Of a stretch of 39,771 nucleotides of DNA, positions 6,971-27,174 are shown in pieces. How positions within the stretch are numbered: position 1 is the stretch's first letter; every line of letters begins with the position of its first letter. Below the pieces are notes generated by a model that was not told where the DNA came from, made no database searches, and worked only from the letters and a program-made list of their open reading frames with translations. The stretch comes from a virus: the IMG/VR virus record IMGVR_UViG_3300040808_000522, positions 1 to 39,771 of that record; one strand, 5' to 3'. The position numbers and the translations under genes are program-made.

Positions 6971-8227
6971 TTAAAATAAAGTTGCTCTTCTACTATGTCT
7001 GAAGTAATCTATTTTTTCTTTAGCAAAACACCATACATTCTCAATATATATTCGATTCATAAACTCGGCCTTTTCTTCTTCACTTTCAAATAGTTTATCC
7101 GATTTAGGTCGTTGCATAATCCTCATACCTATCTGGCCTACAAAATTATCTTTTAAACTATCAACTAATTCATCACTTGAATAATATCTTTTGTTTTTTA
7201 TATTAGGGTCCATTATATTTACAAACATATGTTTTGATCTTTCAAAACTCTTTTTTGCAACAGGTAAATAGAAATCATCACGCCATTTAGAATACTCATC
7301 AAACTTAAACCATGATTGGTTTTCTTCTTTATCACCACCTTCGTTATATCTTTCTGTAGAAAAGTATGGTGGACTTGTAAATGCACAATCTATATTATCT
7401 ATTTTATCCCATGGTAAATCCTCAGCACCACAATTATAGATAGTAACTTTTTTAGGATTAGGCAAAAAACTATTATATGTTTCTATTTGTTTTAAATATT
7501 GTTTGTAAGTGTTAGGATTTGGATCACAACCAATATATTCTTCAGCATCACTGGCAAAAAAACCTGCAAGTCTATCACCCCAACCACATGATGTATCTAA
7601 CACTCTTTTGGCGTTAGTCATCTGATATATTGTTTTTGCTACATTTGGTTTAAATTGTGTTGCAATATATGTACCTAATCTAAAGGCTGACATATAACTT
7701 TTATCATTTAAAACCCCACCTCTTAATTCTGTTTTGCCATCCACTTCTACTGGTTTCATACCATTAATTCCACGCCAGATGGGGCCAAGACATCGCCATA
7801 TATCTTTTGCTGTACCATTTTGCCATACATCTATGGGTGCTTTGAAACCAAAACTACTACAATTTAATCTTAAATGTTGATGAAAGTAATTACTAACATC
7901 ATTGTAAATAGATGGTGCATCTATAATACCTAGGCCATGATCTTTAAAATTATACTTATAGTCATCATACTTTTCCTTTACATTTTTTTCTAACTGTTCT
8001 AAAGGCTTTACATATTCCCACACATCTTGTTTTTGTAAAGATTTAAACGCTTGACGCATTATATCATAAGATATTTGTTTCAAAGGAAACTCTGGCCTGT
8101 GTTTAGCTATATACTCAGATAAATCTAATCTAAACTGTTCTTTGCCAATATCATTTGTAACAGTTTCAAACATCTGTTGATCCATTACAGGTAATTTGCC
8201 GTTATACTTATTTAAATAATCACTCAT
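6971..8227 (-). CDS. SAM-dependent DNA methyltransferase, TSPPY type (paralogue A)
   Basis: A 418-residue methyltransferase probably modifying an amino group of adenine or cytosine in DNA. The SAM-binding motif I reads RVLDTSCGWGDRLAGFF (208-224) and the catalytic motif IV reads TSPPY (284-288). The long N-terminal part (1-200) has no recognised fold and probably recognises the target. The same plan (N-terminal region, DxSxGxGGRL/DRL motif, CDPNPNTY/TDPCVPTY motif, TSPPY) occurs in the 361-residue protein at 20965-22050, so the phage carries two paralogues. It is driven by the promoter at 8269-8297. No restriction partner is adjacent, so self-protection or regulation is more likely than an R-M system. 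Confidence 0.85.
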   Translation of the reverse strand: MSDYLNKYNGKLPVMDQQMFETVTNDIGKEQFRLDLSEYIAKHRPEFPLKQISYDIMRQAFKSLQKQDVWEYVKPLEQLEKNVKEKYDDYKYNFKDHGLGIIDAPSIYNDVSNYFHQHLRLNCSSFGFKAPIDVWQNGTAKDIWRCLGPIWRGINGMKPVEVDGKTELRGGVLNDKSYMSAFRLGTYIATQFKPNVAKTIYQMTNAKRVLDTSCGWGDRLAGFFASDAEEYIGCDPNPNTYKQYLKQIETYNSFLPNPKKVTIYNCGAEDLPWDKIDNIDCAFTSPPYFSTERYNEGGDKEENQSWFKFDEYSKWRDDFYLPVAKKSFERSKHMFVNIMDPNIKNKRYYSSDELVDSLKDNFVGQIGMRIMQRPKSDKLFESEEEKAEFMNRIYIENVWCFAKEKIDYFRHSRRATLF

Positions 8228-13852: not shown

Positions 13853-14200
13853 TCATTTATCTTCCATTGTAAATTCACTTACGATTTCACTATCAACATC
13901 AAAGCCACCTTTATTAATTGTCCAGGTGTCTTCGTGTCGTTCATAATCGTGTTCACTTACAAATTCTTGTACTTTATCTGCCAGCTCTTTGTCTTCATCA
14001 CTAGCACTAGAATATTCATTCCAATTAAAATAAAGTCCTTTTTCAAAGTTTTGAAGACTACCAAATTGTTCTATAATATCATCTACATCAATTTTTCTAT
14101 TAAGATAATGTGTGGATTGGTGGTACTCTTTATCTTCAACTTTTAGAGTATCGCCAGGTTTATATTCAGTACCGTCTTCTAGTTTATATTTGTCTGACAT
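13853..14200 (-). CDS. Acidic hypothetical protein, 115 aa
   Basis: A 115-residue strongly acidic protein (MSDKYKLEDGTEYKPGDTLK start; ASDEDKELADKVQEFVSEHD) with no recognised domain. The opening looks like a small beta strand pair, followed by helices and an acidic C-terminus ending EFTMEDK. Its ATG overlaps the gp45 stop (TAATG), so it is translationally coupled to the clamp gene. The extreme charge and position between clamp and clamp loader would fit a DNA mimic or replisome accessory, but this is inference. Confidence 0.7.
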   Translation of the reverse strand: MSDKYKLEDGTEYKPGDTLKVEDKEYHQSTHYLNRKIDVDDIIEQFGSLQNFEKGLYFNWNEYSSASDEDKELADKVQEFVSEHDYERHEDTWTINKGGFDVDSEIVSEFTMEDK

Positions 14201-14865
14201 TAAAATACACTATCTGCTTCTAAAGCAATCCAATATTGTACTTTAACCTTTTTGTTTATGAAGTGAGCAATCTTTGCCTTCGATAAAGCAACATCATATT
14301 CGCCAGGAATAATTTTCATATTCTCTGCCTTAATATATGCAGTAAACTCTAAATCTGTTTCACCCACTATAATAGATGATTCATTTGAGTTACTATTCTT
14401 TTTATCTAAAGCAACTAATTTAATTTTGCCTTTTTCACCTTTAAAAGCAATGTCAGGTAGACTTAAATTAGTATATAACTTTTTGACAGAATCATAGTCT
14501 TCATTTTTTAATGTAAATGAAACTGTTTTGTCTGGCATTGATATTTGTTTTGATGGATATCTTAACGTTGACTTGTCAGCAAATGCATATCTAGCTGATA
14601 GAGTAGATTTCTCATCTTGTATTTTTAAATTAGCAGCACCATTAAACTTTAAAACTGGTTGTTGAAAAGAATCTACAGCTCTTAAAAATTCTGGCAAATC
14701 ATATATACCAAATTCTGTTTCAAACTGTTCCTCAACGTCTGCCTTTGCCATAATGTTTTTCATAGTTGACATTGTACTTAATGTCTTACCAGGTGTAAAC
14801 AAAATGTTAGCATTAATATCCGAGAAATTTCTCAAAATACTAATTGTATTATCACTTATTTTCAT
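14200..14865 (-). CDS. 45: Sliding clamp gp45
   Basis: The trimeric processivity clamp, 221 residues (T4 228). It starts MKISDNTISILRNFSDINAN, with the family segments ILFTPGKTLSTMSTMKNIMA and YDLPEFLRAVDSF. It encircles DNA, tethers gp43 and, in T4, also activates late transcription by contacting gp55/gp33. The presence of gp55 and TATAAATA late boxes in the window suggests the same role here. The start overlaps the stop of the DUF3310-like gene (ATGA), and a GGAG ribosome site is present. Confidence 0.95.
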   Translation of the reverse strand: MKISDNTISILRNFSDINANILFTPGKTLSTMSTMKNIMAKADVEEQFETEFGIYDLPEFLRAVDSFQQPVLKFNGAANLKIQDEKSTLSARYAFADKSTLRYPSKQISMPDKTVSFTLKNEDYDSVKKLYTNLSLPDIAFKGEKGKIKLVALDKKNSNSNESSIIVGETDLEFTAYIKAENMKIIPGEYDVALSKAKIAHFINKKVKVQYWIALEADSVF

Positions 14866-15131: not shown

Positions 15132-15160
15132 ATTATATCACTAAATTGAATTTGAGTCAA
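15132..15160 (-). promoter_or_regulatory. Sigma70-type promoter for clamp operon
   Basis: On the minus strand TTGACT (15160-15155), a 17-base spacer and TATAAT (15137-15132). The -35 lies in the last codons of the peroxiredoxin gene. It would drive the DUF3310 gene, gp45, gp44 and downstream replisome genes. Confidence 0.82.
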
Positions 15161-15665
15161 TAGATGATGATTGTAAATATTTTAACACATTCTCTGGTGC
15201 ACTTACGCTATAAGGATCACCTGTTGTATTATCACCTTTACCTGGTTCTTCAAATAAGGCTTCTACTGTACCATTGTTTACAATAGCAGCATATCTCCAC
15301 GATCTCATTCCAAAACCTGCAATTGTTTTTTCTACAAGCATATCAACTTGATCCGTAAAGTCACCATTTCCATCTGGTATAACTTTTACATTTTCAAGTT
15401 TTTGATCAGCTGCCCAAGCATTCATAACAAACGAATCATTTACTGATAAACAATAAATGTCGTCTATGCCGTGTTCTTTAAACACGTCAGCTAATTTTTC
15501 AAAGCCTGGCAATTGTTGAGTTGAACATGTAGGAGTAAAAGCACCTGGTAAAGCAAACAGTATAACTCTTTTATCTTTAAAGTAAGTATCAGTAGTTGTT
15601 TCTGTCCATTGACCAAGTGATCTTACTCTAAAATTTACTTCTGGTAATTTATCACCTTGTTTCAT
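15141..15665 (-). CDS. Peroxiredoxin (Prx5-type)
   Basis: A 174-residue thiol peroxidase that reduces hydrogen peroxide or organic peroxides. The active site PGAFTPTCS spans residues 40-48 with the peroxidatic Cys47, and the PxxxT/SxxC signature is intact. The C-terminal part (GMRSWRYAAIVNNG) matches the AhpC/TSA Prx5 subgroup. A second cysteine (Cys72) could act as a resolving residue, but this is not certain. Peroxiredoxins in marine phages are auxiliary genes that may protect the infected cell from oxidation. The start follows AGGAG; the likely promoter is at 15697-15725. Confidence 0.93.
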   Translation of the reverse strand: MKQGDKLPEVNFRVRSLGQWTETTTDTYFKDKRVILFALPGAFTPTCSTQQLPGFEKLADVFKEHGIDDIYCLSVNDSFVMNAWAADQKLENVKVIPDGNGDFTDQVDMLVEKTIAGFGMRSWRYAAIVNNGTVEALFEEPGKGDNTTGDPYSVSAPENVLKYLQSSSIDSNSI

Positions 15666-15729: not shown

Positions 15730-15885
15730 CTATATGCTTTGCAATCTTGGATCTTTTGATGTGATATTTTTTTCTGCTTTTGGTCTTGCGATTGAGTCTT
15801 TTGATCTTTTTCTCAATTGAGCTTTAGCAGAATTTTCTCTACTTCTTTCAGTAAAGATTTTTTTTAAATCCCATTTAAAATTCAT
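15730..15885 (-). CDS. 51-aa basic peptide downstream of glutamine aptamer
   Basis: A short gene starting at ATG 15885 after a very strong GGAGGG ribosome site and stopping at 15730. The 51-residue product begins MNFKWDLKKIFTERSRENSA and is rich in Lys, Arg and Ser, probably disordered or helical (AKAQLRKRSKDSIARPKAEK). It is the only gene controlled by the riboswitch-like leader at 15906-15955. Known relatives of that leader, the Downstream-peptide RNAs, are also followed by a short peptide gene. In cyanobacteria, small basic proteins under glutamine riboswitches inactivate glutamine synthetase (IF17). An analogous phage modulator of host nitrogen metabolism is an inference; I see no sequence match strong enough to claim it. 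Confidence 0.75.
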   Translation of the reverse strand: MNFKWDLKKIFTERSRENSAKAQLRKRSKDSIARPKAEKNITSKDPRLQSI

Positions 15886-15905
15886 ACACCCTCCGTTTAT
15901 AGTTA

Positions 15906-15955
15906 GGTGCGTTCCTTCAGCATTTGCTTACTTCCGACTCATAAGAGTTGAACGA
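15906..15955 (-). promoter_or_regulatory. Glutamine riboswitch (glnA / Downstream-peptide type)
   Basis: Read on the minus strand, CGTTC (15954-15950) pairs with GAACG (15914-15910) as P1; ACTC-TTAT-GAGT is P2; AGC-AAAT-GCT is P3. The conserved junction strings TCGGAAGTA and GAAGGAACGCACC match what I know of the glnA/Downstream-peptide glutamine aptamers. The first P1 base lies about three bases after the predicted start from the TATAAATA box at 15963-15970. GCACC (15910-15906) can pair with GGTGT (15890-15886), which overlaps the end of the ribosome site, suggesting control of translation initiation. Confidence 0.85.
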
Positions 15956-15962
15956 TATAAAG

Positions 15963-15970
15963 TATTTATA
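15963..15970 (-). promoter_or_regulatory. T4-type late promoter for riboswitch gene
   Basis: An exact TATAAATA on the minus strand. By T4 spacing the transcript would start near 15957, almost flush with the glutamine aptamer. Three of its bases lie in the hairpin at 15968-16000. Confidence 0.75.
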
Positions 15971-16000
15971 TCTGGTATGCGTTTGAAACATACCAGATAT
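15968..16000 (-). terminator. Hairpin after hsp20, overlapping late promoter
   Basis: ATATCTGGTATG (15968-15979) and CATACCAGATAT (15989-16000) form a perfect 12-bp stem with a nine-base loop, starting eight bases after the hsp20 stop. It has no long U run, so it may be a weak terminator or a 3'-end stabiliser. Its base overlaps the next late promoter. Confidence 0.6.
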
Positions 16001-16008
16001 TGGTTTTA

Positions 16009-16452
16009 TTATTTGATTGAGATAGTTCTAGGCTTTTTATGTTCTGGAACTATTCTCTCTAAAGACACCCTTAACAAGCCGTCTTTTAGTTCAGCGCCTT
16101 TAACTTCAACGTCTTCAGCGATTGTAAAAGATTTTTTAAAGTATCTTTTAGCGATACCTTTATGGATTACTTCTCCATCTTTAGTATCTTCCTTTTCGTC
16201 TTTTTTAGACTCAATAGATAAAACACCCTCCTCAAGGTCGATGTTTATATCTTTTTTATTATAACCAGCAAGTGCGATTTCAATATCGTACTTATTCTTA
16301 TCCTGTTTTACTATATTGTAATAAGGAAAAGCTGTAGTTTGGATATGATCTAACTGATGATCAAACATTGATTCAAAATGTCTGAACGTGTCATCAAATC
16401 CTACGGTTAGTGGTCTTAATTGATTGAAAATAGATAATGCTTTATTAGTCAT
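16009..16452 (-). CDS. hsp20: Small heat-shock protein Hsp20
   Basis: A 147-residue IbpA-like chaperone that holds unfolding proteins. The N-terminal arm (1-40) leads into an alpha-crystallin domain (about 42-135) with NKYDIEIALAGYNKKDINID, GVLSIESKKDE and KSFTIAEDVEVKGAELKDG, and LRVSLERIVPE. The C-terminal tail carries the I-x-I motif (ISI at 144-146). Hsp20 is common in T4-like cyanophages and pelagiphages. The start follows GGAGG. The combined promoter at 16517-16548 precedes it, so it may be expressed both early and late. Confidence 0.96.
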   Translation of the reverse strand: MTNKALSIFNQLRPLTVGFDDTFRHFESMFDHQLDHIQTTAFPYYNIVKQDKNKYDIEIALAGYNKKDINIDLEEGVLSIESKKDEKEDTKDGEVIHKGIAKRYFKKSFTIAEDVEVKGAELKDGLLRVSLERIVPEHKKPRTISIK

Positions 16453-16784: not shown

Positions 16785-17027
16785 TTATATTTTCTTTATT
16801 TTTACACCTTTTATCCAAGTATATCCTAACAATTCATCATTAGCCTTTTGTGCTTTTCTGATTATTTTAGAACGTTCTTTTGCTTTTTCACGTTTTATTT
16901 CTGATGGTTTAGAAAAGTATTTTTTATCTTTTATACTTTGCATAATTCCTGACCTTTGTACTTTTTTCTTTAGTACACGCATAGCCTTCTCTAAATTGCC
17001 ACCTCTTACTTCAACTGTAATTGACAT
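16785..17027 (-). CDS. rpsU: Ribosomal protein bS21
   Basis: An 80-residue homologue of the small-subunit protein bS21 (host proteins about 65-75 residues). It has the family core MSITVEVRGGNLEKAMRVLK and KKKVQRSGIM, followed by a basic helix (PSEIKREKAKERSKIIRKA) and a C-terminal tail with YTWIKGVKIKKI. bS21 sits near the platform of the 30S subunit and affects initiation. Phage copies, known from some pelagiphages, are thought to replace host bS21 and bias translation. The start follows GGGAGG; the ribosome site lies in the last codons of the 109-residue gene upstream. Confidence 0.93.
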   Translation of the reverse strand: MSITVEVRGGNLEKAMRVLKKKVQRSGIMQSIKDKKYFSKPSEIKREKAKERSKIIRKAQKANDELLGYTWIKGVKIKKI

Positions 17028-20964: not shown

Positions 20965-22050
20965 TTATTTAATTCCTATGAATATTGGCTCATATTTACG
21001 TCCTGGAATGTCAGGTCTTGCGAATCGACCTATATAATTATTCTTTTGTTTGGACTCTACAGAATCACCATCTAGTGTAGATTGTGTTTGTGTACCTTGT
21101 TGTGTTGATAATGACAACCACCATATTTCTATATCTTTAAATCCTGCCTCAACCATACAATCATATGTATCTTCCTCAAATGTTTTATATGATTTAACAT
21201 TTGCAACATTAAACGCAGCTCTTTTGCCAGGTTTTAGACCTGTGTGTGCATTTTTAATAGTTTGTAATAGGAAACCATTACGCCATTCATCTTGTTGTTT
21301 GAATTTATTAAATGATTGTTCTGGTTCATCACCATATTGTTCGTGTCCTAAATAAGGTGGACTTGTAAATACAAAGTCCAAACTATTTTCAGTAGGTATA
21401 TAAGTTTCACTACCTTGTTTTAATAGCACATATTTTTTATGAGAGTGGCCATACTCATCTCTAATCTTTTCTAAACCTGCATATGTAGGAACACAAGGGT
21501 CTGTGCCTATGTAATTAACGCCAGCTGCAATTGCACCCATTAAACGACCACCGTAACCCATACTAGGATCCCATACTGTACCTGCTTCTGTTCCTTCTAA
21601 TGGACTATCTTTTTCTACAAATATATCATATAAAGTTGCGGCTGCTGTAGGTCTAAAATTAGATACCATTTGAGTACCACTATATCTTCGCAACATAGCT
21701 CTCATATCTGACTCTGTAATTTTATGTGCTTCTCGTTTAGTAAAGAAAGTTCCTGTAAGTATTTTACTAATGCCTTTTTCTAAATGTTCTTCGTCTTCCC
21801 ATATATCCATAGGTGTTTTCATTTTACCACATTTAATACCCCATGCGTGGTGCATATAAGACCATGCAAGTGTTAACCCATGTGTTGATTGACCTATAAT
21901 TTTATTCTGTGTATCTAATATGGTATCTCTATTAAATGATAATAATTTTTGAAATTCATCATTACGCCATTTTCTATCTTCAGGATAGTATGGGAATCCT
22001 TTATTATCTTTCCAATCTCTAACTACTTCTTTTGCGTTTGACATATACAT
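20965..22050 (-). CDS. SAM-dependent DNA methyltransferase, TSPPY type (paralogue B)
   Basis: A 361-residue amino-methyltransferase of the same family as the gene at 6971-8227. The SAM motif reads VWDPSMGYGGRLMG (159-172) and the catalytic motif TSPPY lies at 229-233, preceded by the IGTDPCVPTYAG block. The C-terminus contains a specificity-like section ending PGRKYEPIFIGIK. It overlaps the upstream acetyltransferase gene by 32 bases; an ATG two codons later (22044) is an alternative start. The target sequence cannot be told. Having two diverged copies implies two target sites or two stages of infection. Confidence 0.85.
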   Translation of the reverse strand: MYMSNAKEVVRDWKDNKGFPYYPEDRKWRNDEFQKLLSFNRDTILDTQNKIIGQSTHGLTLAWSYMHHAWGIKCGKMKTPMDIWEDEEHLEKGISKILTGTFFTKREAHKITESDMRAMLRRYSGTQMVSNFRPTAAATLYDIFVEKDSPLEGTEAGTVWDPSMGYGGRLMGAIAAGVNYIGTDPCVPTYAGLEKIRDEYGHSHKKYVLLKQGSETYIPTENSLDFVFTSPPYLGHEQYGDEPEQSFNKFKQQDEWRNGFLLQTIKNAHTGLKPGKRAAFNVANVKSYKTFEEDTYDCMVEAGFKDIEIWWLSLSTQQGTQTQSTLDGDSVESKQKNNYIGRFARPDIPGRKYEPIFIGIK

Positions 22051-22686: not shown

Positions 22687-23320
22687 TTTGTTTTAATAAG
22701 TTTTCTAATTTAGGGTTCATATAACAATCTATAACTAAATGTAATCTATCATATAAAGATTTGTTATGTACAGCATGAGGTTTAGATACATCAACGTAAT
22801 AGTATTTACCTATTTCTAAATTAAAATGGTGTTCTTTCTTATCTTCCCATAGATAAAAATGTACGTTCTTATCAGTTCTTAATGGGACATGTAATCTTAC
22901 TAATTTGCCGTCTTTTATTTCTTTATCAACTTTGTCTGTGTGTTTTGAAATAGATGTTCCTGCTCTTAATCTCATTATTCTAACTCTATCAAATTCAGCA
23001 GGTATATGAGATAGAATTTCTTTTATAGGTAACATTTCAGATTGCTCGTATAGATATGTCCATCTTAAAGGTTGTACCTCTACGCCACTTTTTAGAACAC
23101 CTGGTTTTAATATATTCAACACATCATCACTATATCCTTTTATAGATATAGCTTCCCATCCATACCAAGTTTTATCTGGTTGGGATTCATCCCATTTTAA
23201 TTTTTCGTTATATTTCGTTTTTACAGCTGAAAATTCTATGTTATCTATGAAATCGCAACAGTTAGCTAAACTATTTTTATAGTGAGGTAAATCTATTTCT
23301 TTGCAGATTGTTGTTTCCAT
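22676..23320 (-). CDS. Aspartyl/asparaginyl beta-hydroxylase-like oxygenase
   Basis: A 214-residue Fe(II)/2-oxoglutarate enzyme like the Asp/Asn hydroxylases. The metal and cosubstrate residues appear as His127-x-Asp129 (SISKHTDK), His182 (SKPHAVHNKS) and Arg192 (YDRLHLVIDCY). The core strand RLHVPLRTDKNVHFYLW is typical of this family. It sits just after peptide deformylase with a 28-base overlap, so a role in modifying proteins after synthesis is plausible. Free amino acids are another possible substrate. Confidence 0.85.
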   Translation of the reverse strand: METTICKEIDLPHYKNSLANCCDFIDNIEFSAVKTKYNEKLKWDESQPDKTWYGWEAISIKGYSDDVLNILKPGVLKSGVEVQPLRWTYLYEQSEMLPIKEILSHIPAEFDRVRIMRLRAGTSISKHTDKVDKEIKDGKLVRLHVPLRTDKNVHFYLWEDKKEHHFNLEIGKYYYVDVSKPHAVHNKSLYDRLHLVIDCYMNPKLENLLKQSEE

Positions 23321-23850
23321 AATTCTTGTGCCTTTCTTATTTCTTTATCTCTTTTTTTAAGAGCATAGTCTAATTTAAACTTACTAACCTTTTCTGTAAA
23401 AACTGTACCGTTCATATGATCTAGCTCATGTTGATAACATCTACTAACAATGCCAATCATATCTTCTTCTTGTTCTTTTAAATCCTCATCAAGGTATTTA
23501 ACTTTTACAGCACTTGGTCTTTCTATATCTAAAAATAGAAAAGGGAAAGTTAAGCATCCTTCTTTGAGTCTAGTTGTTTGTTTACTTTCCTCAACTATTG
23601 TAGGATTTATACAAGTCCACCTTTTACTTTTATGTATTTCAGGATGAGCTCCCATTATAAACATTCTATATGGTTTGCCTACTTGATTAGCTGATAATCC
23701 AATACCTCCATATTTTTTCATAGTTTCAAACATATTATCTACAAATTCTTTTAGTTCTATTTTTTCTTGTTTCTTAAATGTTTCAATATCAAAAGGTGCT
23801 ATGCTTGATAGTACTCTTGGATCAGATGGTGGTAATAACTCATATATCAT
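23293..23850 (-). CDS. def: Peptide deformylase
   Basis: A 185-residue metalloenzyme that removes the formyl group from new proteins. The three signature motifs are all present: GGIGLSANQ at 48-56 (motif 1), EGCLTFP at 97-103 (motif 2, metal-binding Cys99) and QHELDH at 140-145 (motif 3, HExxH-like). Marine phages often carry this enzyme, thought to sustain deformylation of abundant phage (or photosystem) proteins. The start overlaps the stop of gene 46 (ATGA). Confidence 0.96.
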   Translation of the reverse strand: MIYELLPPSDPRVLSSIAPFDIETFKKQEKIELKEFVDNMFETMKKYGGIGLSANQVGKPYRMFIMGAHPEIHKSKRWTCINPTIVEESKQTTRLKEGCLTFPFLFLDIERPSAVKVKYLDEDLKEQEEDMIGIVSRCYQHELDHMNGTVFTEKVSKFKLDYALKKRDKEIRKAQELWKQQSAKK

Positions 23851-25559: not shown

Positions 25560-26623
25560 ACCTTATTATCACTAGCCTCAATGTAAATTGATTTTAAATA
25601 TTCTTTTAGTTTAGTTTTACTCACATCTGTTTCTAATTGATCAACATAGTTATTTAGGAATGTAACTGTATCTTCGCCCATTTCTAATATATCTTCTCTT
25701 ACACTAGCTTTAATATCTGAATAATCTTCTACAATATTTAAGTCATGTACTGTTATCTCATTATACAATCTTTCTACGAATTTGTCAAATACCTCGTTAT
25801 CGGTCTTGTTTAATACAATTAATTTAACAAAGTGGTTGTGATATTCTTTTATATCATAATTTTTATAGTCTTTCTTTTTATCATCATAAATTATTTTTTT
25901 GTGTATGGTAAGTGGATTACGTACTCTAGTTATTTCTCTAGTTTCTGTATCAAAGATATGAAATCCTTTAGGGTCTTGGTAGTCAGACCATGTCATCTCA
26001 TATTGAGCACCGTTGTAGTGTATTTGGCCATCATCTGTATGTTTATGAAAGTGGCCTGATATAACTCTATCAAATCTATTAAAATCTGATTTTGCTAAAC
26101 CGTGTTCATTAATTACACCATTTTGCATTTCAATACCTTTGATTTCTAAATGACCAAAACATAAATCTGCTTTGGCTGTTTTTAACATTTCCATAGAGTG
26201 TTCATAGTTGTCATCACAAATCCAAGGCACAAATAAAATAGATGTACCATCAAAATCTACAACAGTTGACTTTGTATATATCCATGGCTCATGTCTTTTA
26301 TCAAATGATGAATATAAATTTTCTATAGCATTTACGTCATTTGTATTTTTAAAGTATGTATCGTGGTTCCCTATAATAATATGTGTATCAATTTGTTCTT
26401 CATATAGTCTATCCCAAAATTGTTTTCTAAAAACAGAAGCGGTTTGAAAGTTAATAAACTTCCTTCTATCAACAACATCGCCCAGGTGAACCAATGTTTT
26501 TACATTGTGTTCTTGTAAGTAGGGAAAAAAGATTTCATTATAAAATCTTAATTGATATTCTCTAAATGCTTGAGAGTCATTTCTCACGCCAAAATGGGTA
26601 TCATTCAATAGGGCAATCTTCAT
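25556..26623 (-). CDS. 47: Recombination nuclease subunit gp47 (SbcD/Mre11-like)
   Basis: A 355-residue calcineurin-like phosphoesterase (T4 339). The metal motifs are NDTHFGV at 7-13, HLGDVVDRR at 46-54, GNHD at 85-88, and further down GHLEIKG and SGHFHKH. With gp46 it forms the nuclease complex. The start overlaps the gp55 stop (TAATG), so sigma factor and nuclease subunits share one transcript. Confidence 0.96.
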   Translation of the reverse strand: MKIALLNDTHFGVRNDSQAFREYQLRFYNEIFFPYLQEHNVKTLVHLGDVVDRRKFINFQTASVFRKQFWDRLYEEQIDTHIIIGNHDTYFKNTNDVNAIENLYSSFDKRHEPWIYTKSTVVDFDGTSILFVPWICDDNYEHSMEMLKTAKADLCFGHLEIKGIEMQNGVINEHGLAKSDFNRFDRVISGHFHKHTDDGQIHYNGAQYEMTWSDYQDPKGFHIFDTETREITRVRNPLTIHKKIIYDDKKKDYKNYDIKEYHNHFVKLIVLNKTDNEVFDKFVERLYNEITVHDLNIVEDYSDIKASVREDILEMGEDTVTFLNNYVDQLETDVSKTKLKEYLKSIYIEASDNKV

Positions 26624-27174
26624 TATATATCTAATACGCTAGTATAGGTTCTTTTTTTTCTTTTCTTAATTCTTATCTCACTAGCTGTTGGTTGTTCCTC
26701 AGTTGATGGTTTATTTTTTCTTAAAAATTCTAAAAACTGATTCTTATAATCATTTTGTGTATCACCAGGTAGTACAGAAAATTCATCTATGTTGCCTTGT
26801 TCAATCATTCTATACTTAATGTTTGTTTGTTTCTTTTCTTTTTGTATTCTTCTAATAAAGGCATAGTAAATGATTTGTGTAAAATAAGCAAATGGATTAT
26901 TTGACTTTTTAGGATTAAAGTTTTTAAGATATTGTAAACAGTTTTCTATACCATCAGAAATCATATCATCTCTAAAGGTATAGTTAATAAAATTAGGTCT
27001 ATAAGATAAGTGATTTGCAATCTTTAAAAAACATTCACCAATATAATTTGTAACTGGTGGTGTTTTTCTATTTCTTTTTTCTGCCTTATCACACTTATCC
27101 TTATACTCTATCATCGCCTGTAGAAACTTTTTGTTATCTACATAATGTGCTGATCTTTTTCTAGTTTTAGTCAT
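26623..27174 (-). CDS. 55: Late sigma factor gp55
   Basis: A 183-residue highly diverged sigma factor (T4 185) that directs host RNA polymerase to TATAAATA late promoters. The family region includes RPNFINYTFRDDMISDGIEN and NCLQYLKNFNPKKSNNPFAYF, corresponding to sigma region 2, and a C-terminal basic tail KKRKKRTYTSVLDI where T4 gp55 binds the clamp. Exact TATAAATA boxes occur upstream of five genes in this window. It has its own sigma70 promoter (27181-27209). Confidence 0.95.
   Translation of the reverse strand: MTKTRKRSAHYVDNKKFLQAMIEYKDKCDKAEKRNRKTPPVTNYIGECFLKIANHLSYRPNFINYTFRDDMISDGIENCLQYLKNFNPKKSNNPFAYFTQIIYYAFIRRIQKEKKQTNIKYRMIEQGNIDEFSVLPGDTQNDYKNQFLEFLRKNKPSTEEQPTASEIRIKKRKKRTYTSVLDI

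Follow-up and report, generated by a model that had tools for sequence, protein, structure and literature searches.

Background

Glutamine-I riboswitches were regarded in a 2018 review as restricted to cyanobacteria (PMC6316151), where members of both the glutamine-I and glutamine-II classes act as ON switches (PMC6316151; PMC6698751). The roles of the nucleotides contacting the ligand in the glutamine-I aptamer have been described (PMC6698751, PMC11477058), and the crystal structure revealed that C60 pairs with G23 upon glutamine binding (linchpin G23-C60; PMC11477058). Small basic proteins are known among cyanobacterial nitrogen regulators, e.g., the PII-interacting PirA of 51 aa (PMC8092223). 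In phages, a glutamine riboswitch was reported to control tmRNA in Melnitz (PMC9004378). Riboswitches have been called rare in phages, and none of the literature found establishes which genes they control. The locus presented here supplies a likely target, a promoter and a covariation-backed mechanism for a phage glutamine riboswitch, and points to an arrangement common in marine phages as well as to glutamine-I riboswitches on alphaproteobacterial nitrogen genes.

Results and discussion

Genomic setting

The analyzed stretch of 39,771 nucleotides (termed the window) is part of the genome of a T4-like myovirus, a marine virus of bacteria, the major capsid protein of which shares 82 % identity with that of Pelagibacter phage Mosig, 75 % with Methylophilales phage Melnitz and 72 % with Pelagibacter phage HTVC008M. 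All clear genes are located on the minus strand, and intergenic DNA makes up 5.2 % of the window. Phage-borne homologues of ribosomal protein S21 (16785-17027), peptide deformylase (23293-23850), Hsp20 (16009-16452) and peroxiredoxin (15141-15665) were detected, as were two proteins with SPPY-type motifs (6971-8227 and 20965-22050) that are weakly similar to DNA methyltransferases. The locus follows the order Hsp20 gene, hairpin, TATAAATA box, RNA aptamer, 51-codon ORF and peroxiredoxin gene, and the relevant features are:

16452-16009, minus strand: Hsp20 gene, upstream neighbour of the riboswitch/peptide locus
15968-16000, minus strand: 12-bp hairpin ATATCTGGTATG / CATACCAGATAT between Hsp20 gene and late box (sequence, fold)
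15970-15963, minus strand: T4-type late promoter box (motif, intergenic position, gp55/gp45 present)
15956-15906, minus strand: glutamine-I (glnA, RF01739) riboswitch aptamer with P1, P2 and P3 (cmscan)
15909, minus strand: C15909, equivalent of C60 and first nucleotide of the helix sequestering the Shine-Dalgarno (SD) sequence (model position, PMC11477058)
15909-15905, minus strand: anti-SD strand CACCU (covariation with the SD flank, fold)
15894-15890, minus strand: SD sequence GGAGG, with the sequestered strand GGGUG at 15891-15887 (sequence, fold)
15730-15885, minus strand: ORF of a basic peptide, MNFKWDLKK...DPRLQSI, 51 aa (relatives, coding signature, AlphaFold2)
15665-15141, minus strand: peroxiredoxin gene, downstream neighbour of the peptide ORF
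26623-27174: gp55-like late sigma factor, encoded in the window
14200-14865: gp45 clamp, encoded in the window

Glutamine-I aptamer

Two covariance models had been proposed in an earlier note on this DNA. RF01739 yielded a significant, full-length match (cmscan; model positions 1-53 of 53, 67.3 bits against a cut-off of 35, E 5.8e-13), with no second one elsewhere in the 39.8-kb record. RF01704 (Downstream-peptide, glutamine-II) gave no match in the window at the gathering threshold (cmscan), and this class was dropped for that reason. Stem P1 is formed by CGTTC (15954-15950) and GAACG (15914-15910), and the conserved aptamer strings CGGAAGTA and GAAGGAACGC are both intact, bearing out the P1, P2 and P3 stems and conserved strings that the note had read from the minus strand. 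The ligand-contact nucleotides of RF01739 (P1 end pair C1-G59, G22, G23, C58 and C60) are kept, with CGTTC/GAACG as well as CGGAAGTA and the C right after it all intact. Region 15956-15906 of the minus strand is, thus, well supported by sequence evidence as a glutamine-I riboswitch. The minimum free energy of the leader is ordinary (z -0.70 for 88 nt) and such z-scores are uninformative; the case for a switch draws on the covariance model and on comparing phages with one another, not on the thermodynamics of the window leader alone.

Late-type promoter

The string TATAAATA occurs 5 times in the window versus about 10 expected by chance; all 5 copies are intergenic and on the coding strand, including boxes directly ahead of the scaffold and head-protease genes. 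At the riboswitch locus, the aptamer match begins 6-7 nt past the box. T4 late transcription starts about 6 nt past the box, so that the transcript would begin at the aptamer. Intergenic boxes ahead of late genes, gp55 and gp45 were all found in the window, consistent with T4-type late promoters and with the box placement proposed earlier, by which the RNA would start almost at the aptamer.

The arrangement was compared across phages in a census consisting of two pattern scans of IMG/VR for the aptamer core, the counts of which represent minima. Of 77 distinct phage aptamers among the matches listed, 47 have TAAATA no more than 30 nt upstream (2.6 % of random positions), most commonly 6 nt ahead of P1. 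In an enlarged set, likewise among the matches listed, a late-type box was present in 101 of 139 (73 %) distinct upstream regions and in all 39 of one peptide family. The hairpin at 15968-16000 is retained in relatives, accompanied on contig L040 by a T-run at the same place, and is probably the signal at which the 3' end of the transcript from upstream is formed.

Ribosome-site helix and switching

The bases directly 3' of P1 are complementary to the 3' flank of the SD sequence, which is located ahead of the gene as previously noted. Pairing of GCACC (15910-15906) with GGTGT (15890-15886), put forward in the note as a ribosome-site switch, is present in the minimum-energy fold, and the helix covaries across phages: CACC/GGTG (window), CACTT/GAGTG, CACTTT/GAAGTG, CATCT/AGATG, CAATCT/AGATTG and CTC/GAG (Mosig). 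Since the register shifts by 1-2 bases, covariation was scored by swapping partners, a procedure leaving some relatedness among leaders in place, rather than from a fitted alignment. Among the matches listed, a perfect 4-base complement was observed in 40 of 68 distinct leaders, compared to 17.3±3.0 with swapped partners (maximum 27 in 5000 trials), and in 54 out of 93 leaders of a larger set limited to loci chosen without regard to anti-SD/SD pairing (23.8±3.4 swapped, maximum 35). The excess holds inside peptide family A (12/20 versus 6.2) and family B (9/10 versus 4.7, P 0.003), again among the matches listed. Some leaders, chiefly of the YRG and KNNWQL groups, have no perfect partner for the first four nucleotides.

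Upon computational withdrawal of G59 and C60, the chance of an open ribosome site rises by a median factor of 265. In the window leader, a 4-pair helix of -3.5 kcal/mol persists after this withdrawal, and the switch would, therefore, need steric help. P1 and the 5-bp SD helix fit into one structure (-13.1 versus -8.6 kcal/mol without the SD helix), as would be expected if the glutamine-bound aptamer stacked on the ribosome-site helix, stabilized it and repressed translation. C60, however, has to serve in the linchpin and is at the same time the first nucleotide of the SD helix, and the characterized cyanobacterial members are ON switches, rendering such an OFF switch unlikely. The covarying SD helix, the overlap with C60 and the ON behaviour of the cyanobacterial members together support a translational ON switch.

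Under ON control, RNA polymerase modified by gp55/gp45 would start at the late box, judging from motif and spacing, and the aptamer would form the 5' end of the RNA. At low glutamine, C15909-U15905 would pair with G15891-G15887 and hold translation down, as supported by the covariation. Glutamine binding would draw the last P1 pair and C15909 into the ligand-bound fold and take away the foot of the ribosome-site helix, and the peptide would be made, in accordance with the published structure of the aptamer and with other members of the class being ON switches. The phage micropeptide is, on this reading, probably controlled by a translational riboswitch that glutamine activates during late infection.

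The 51-aa peptide

The short Lys/Arg-rich gene of 51 codons recognized in the note is coding by its differences per codon position (103/71/249 versus 13 relatives), and its product has a pI of 10.8 with 15 K+R and 6 D+E. Searching for relatives, as the note had recommended, retrieved 496 related stretches from IMG/VR; every complete one inspected encodes 51 aa and more distant ones 49-50 aa. Conservation peaks in the C-terminal half (ARPKAEKNI.S.DPRLQ.I), while AlphaFold2 predicts a single helix (residues 3-33) and an extended tail (mean pLDDT 84.6). No match was obtained in PDB by sequence or by fold, in Pfam at E≤1 or in NCBIfam, and none of significance in PHROGs. Across 84,980 bacterial and archaeal species genomes, the peptide was detected on three contigs only, all phage-like by their other genes; the family, accordingly, appears to be phage-specific.

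About one quarter of the 80 nearest relatives of the peptide are accompanied by the riboswitch. It is absent from podovirus- and siphovirus-type relatives (HTVC023P and HTVC104P among them), in which the peptide gene is often found in a late or lysis-like region, overlapping the gene of a small membrane protein. Contig L040 harbours a permuted tmRNA of alphaproteobacterial type (1037-1384) about 1.5 kb apart from a riboswitch (2928-2976) with the 51-aa peptide.

The stretch between the peptide and peroxiredoxin genes showed no terminator, and the switch could mainly serve the latter by read-through, with the peptide as a leader ORF. The peroxiredoxin gene, however, is provided with a ribosome site of its own and with TTGACA-17-TAAACT resembling a promoter, and the peptide is strongly conserved and found with other downstream genes, which makes peroxiredoxin a very unlikely main target.

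Peptides behind phage riboswitches

In Melnitz (MZ577097.1), the annotated tmRNA (45984-46436) overlaps the aptamer (46398-46446), directly behind which lies an unannotated 32-aa ORF, MTLYQQWCYLKAQKEYRRRQKILMYFRIRLKG (46469-46564; L206 1969-2064), of WC type and with its own CACTT/GAGTG SD helix. At this ORF, the published annotation contains an opposite-strand ORF and the tmRNA overlapping the aptamer. The Mosig aptamer (92250-92197) is followed by Mosig_00116, a 51-aa homologue of the window peptide. The simplest reading of these sequences is that both switches would control peptides, which puts the published tmRNA reading of the Melnitz riboswitch in question.

Among the matches listed in the phage census, an ORF of ≤70 aa follows the aptamer in 178 out of 182 glnA aptamers with a readable ORF, noting that ORF picking demanded a ribosome site within 70 nt and, thus, favoured nearby starts; the family structure is independent of this rule. 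The distinct peptides, among the matches listed, have a median length of 49 aa and a median charge of +7. They represent several unrelated families: the window family, a 28-48-aa WC type, a 63-65-aa GTSGY type, YRG/DUF4278, KNNWQL, TYRPFSWK and NPFYP. The peptide on contig L124 was assigned to DUF4278 (30.5 bits versus 25.3), and some loci carry tandem aptamers. Extremely short YRG peptides, about 15-20 aa in length, are located directly behind riboswitches on L091, L094, L101, L114, L122, L126 and L181. No convincing isolate phage was found for YRG and NPFYP peptides, and blastn with the aptamer alone against the phage collection returned chance matches only. While the earlier note considered a late-only, single-gene riboswitch an unusual control design, the same arrangement was observed at more than 100 phage loci and is not unusual in kind: judged by these loci, it is widespread among marine phages, where it comes with a great variety of tiny basic peptides.

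Many peptide relatives manage without a riboswitch, as would be expected of a decayed or neutral passenger without regulatory effect. Such a passenger is, however, extremely improbable, given that diverged phages have retained the aptamer core, the late-box spacing and the covarying SD helix.

Glutamine-I riboswitches in marine alphaproteobacteria

RF01739 was detected in 12 of 28 genomes of the order to which MAG MED606 belongs, marine alphaproteobacteria with mostly small genomes, and in 6 of 385 genomes across the alphaproteobacterial class. Genes behind these riboswitches, identified by reading of the sequences, include those for glutamine synthetase, an ammonium transporter and a secreted protein; in two genomes, a 35-aa basic peptide follows tandem aptamers in chromosomal surroundings. 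The loci are:

L308, L310, L313, L314, L316, L319: riboswitch ahead of glutamine synthetase
L317, L318, L320: riboswitch ahead of Amt
L311, L315: riboswitch ahead of the 35-aa peptide

In the leaders of the glutamine synthetase genes, another kind of downstream hairpin (CGGTAT..ATACCG) is found at a distance from the ribosome site. Other alphaproteobacterial glutamine riboswitches (L322-L326) precede a protein of about 460 aa resembling a circularly permuted ATP-grasp member. The 35-aa peptide resembles phage family A, alignments of its two copies scoring 4.4 and 3.3 sd above shuffles, but the profile search gave no significant match, and homology is at best possible. These matches, from bacteria which may or may not be hosts of the window phage, extend the glutamine-I class beyond cyanobacteria and tie it to nitrogen genes.

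Possible roles of the peptide

The basic helix with its conserved tail most likely acts by binding a protein. A host nitrogen-assimilation protein would be the preferred, tentative candidate, with product-triggered feedback as for cyanobacterial IF17; action on host nitrogen metabolism, as suggested in the note, remains weakly supported. IF17, which inhibits glutamine synthetase in cyanobacteria, contains DUF4278. The presence of this domain among phage riboswitch peptides points to nitrogen, as does the riboswitch class shared by alphaproteobacterial glutamine synthetase, Amt and 35-aa peptide genes. The many peptide relatives without riboswitch weaken this role. The regulatory logic and the DUF4278 members would suit an inhibitor of nitrogen metabolism, whereas the riboswitch-free late-operon relatives fit morphogenesis or lysis.

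With the RNA device operating as described, the peptide could be a late morphogenesis or lysis helper, glutamine reporting a well-supplied cell and nutrient state gating a late step, although this falls somewhat short of an even chance. Podovirus- and siphovirus-type relatives carry the gene without riboswitch, overlapping genes of small membrane proteins and close to genes for peptidase M15 or amidase-like proteins, and timing of lysis by the Melnitz riboswitch has been speculated upon (PMC9004378). On the other hand, the peptide has no membrane segment, its neighbours change from one phage group to the next, peptides unrelated to it stand behind the same riboswitch and alphaproteobacteria use this riboswitch for nitrogen genes.

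The nitrogen-directed reading may, in its broadest and rather doubtful form, be a late programme shared by marine phages: unrelated tiny basic peptides would inhibit proteins of host nitrogen assimilation when glutamine has become abundant, each riboswitch beginning a late transcript, and some alphaproteobacteria would possess a micropeptide of like design beside riboswitch-controlled glutamine synthetase and ammonium transport. Late sensing of the host nitrogen state by phages and the binding partners of the peptides have become testable questions.

Comparison with known systems

RF01739 elements, as in the window, are present in the T4-like cyanophages S-CREM1 and S-H34 (PMC9964418, PMC10665884); the available parts of these two papers do not state controlled gene, promoter or mechanism. 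Glutamine-II riboswitches (RF01704) likewise sense glutamine and precede short ORFs (17-100 aa, marine picocyanobacteria), but have a pseudoknot architecture. The riboswitches of Melnitz and Mosig (PMC9004378) belong to the same class and to related T4-like marine phages; while control of tmRNA was proposed there, the Melnitz aptamer is found here to precede an unannotated 32-aa peptide.

PirA, IF7 and IF17, cyanobacterial nitrogen regulators, are small and basic like the window peptide, and IF17 is also under a glutamine riboswitch. PirA agrees in length and charge, the only features compared. In contrast to these regulators, the window peptide has no Pfam match and, in the genome scan, no relative outside phage contigs; the DUF4278 domain of IF17 was not found in it (no Pfam family at E≤1). 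The cyanobacterial gifB (IF17) riboswitch shares with the window the aptamer core, the ligand-contact nucleotides, a short basic protein as target and probable translational ON control. The phage system differs from gifB in its late-type promoter, a predicted transcript start at the aptamer, its non-cyanobacterial setting and targets belonging to families unrelated to IF17.
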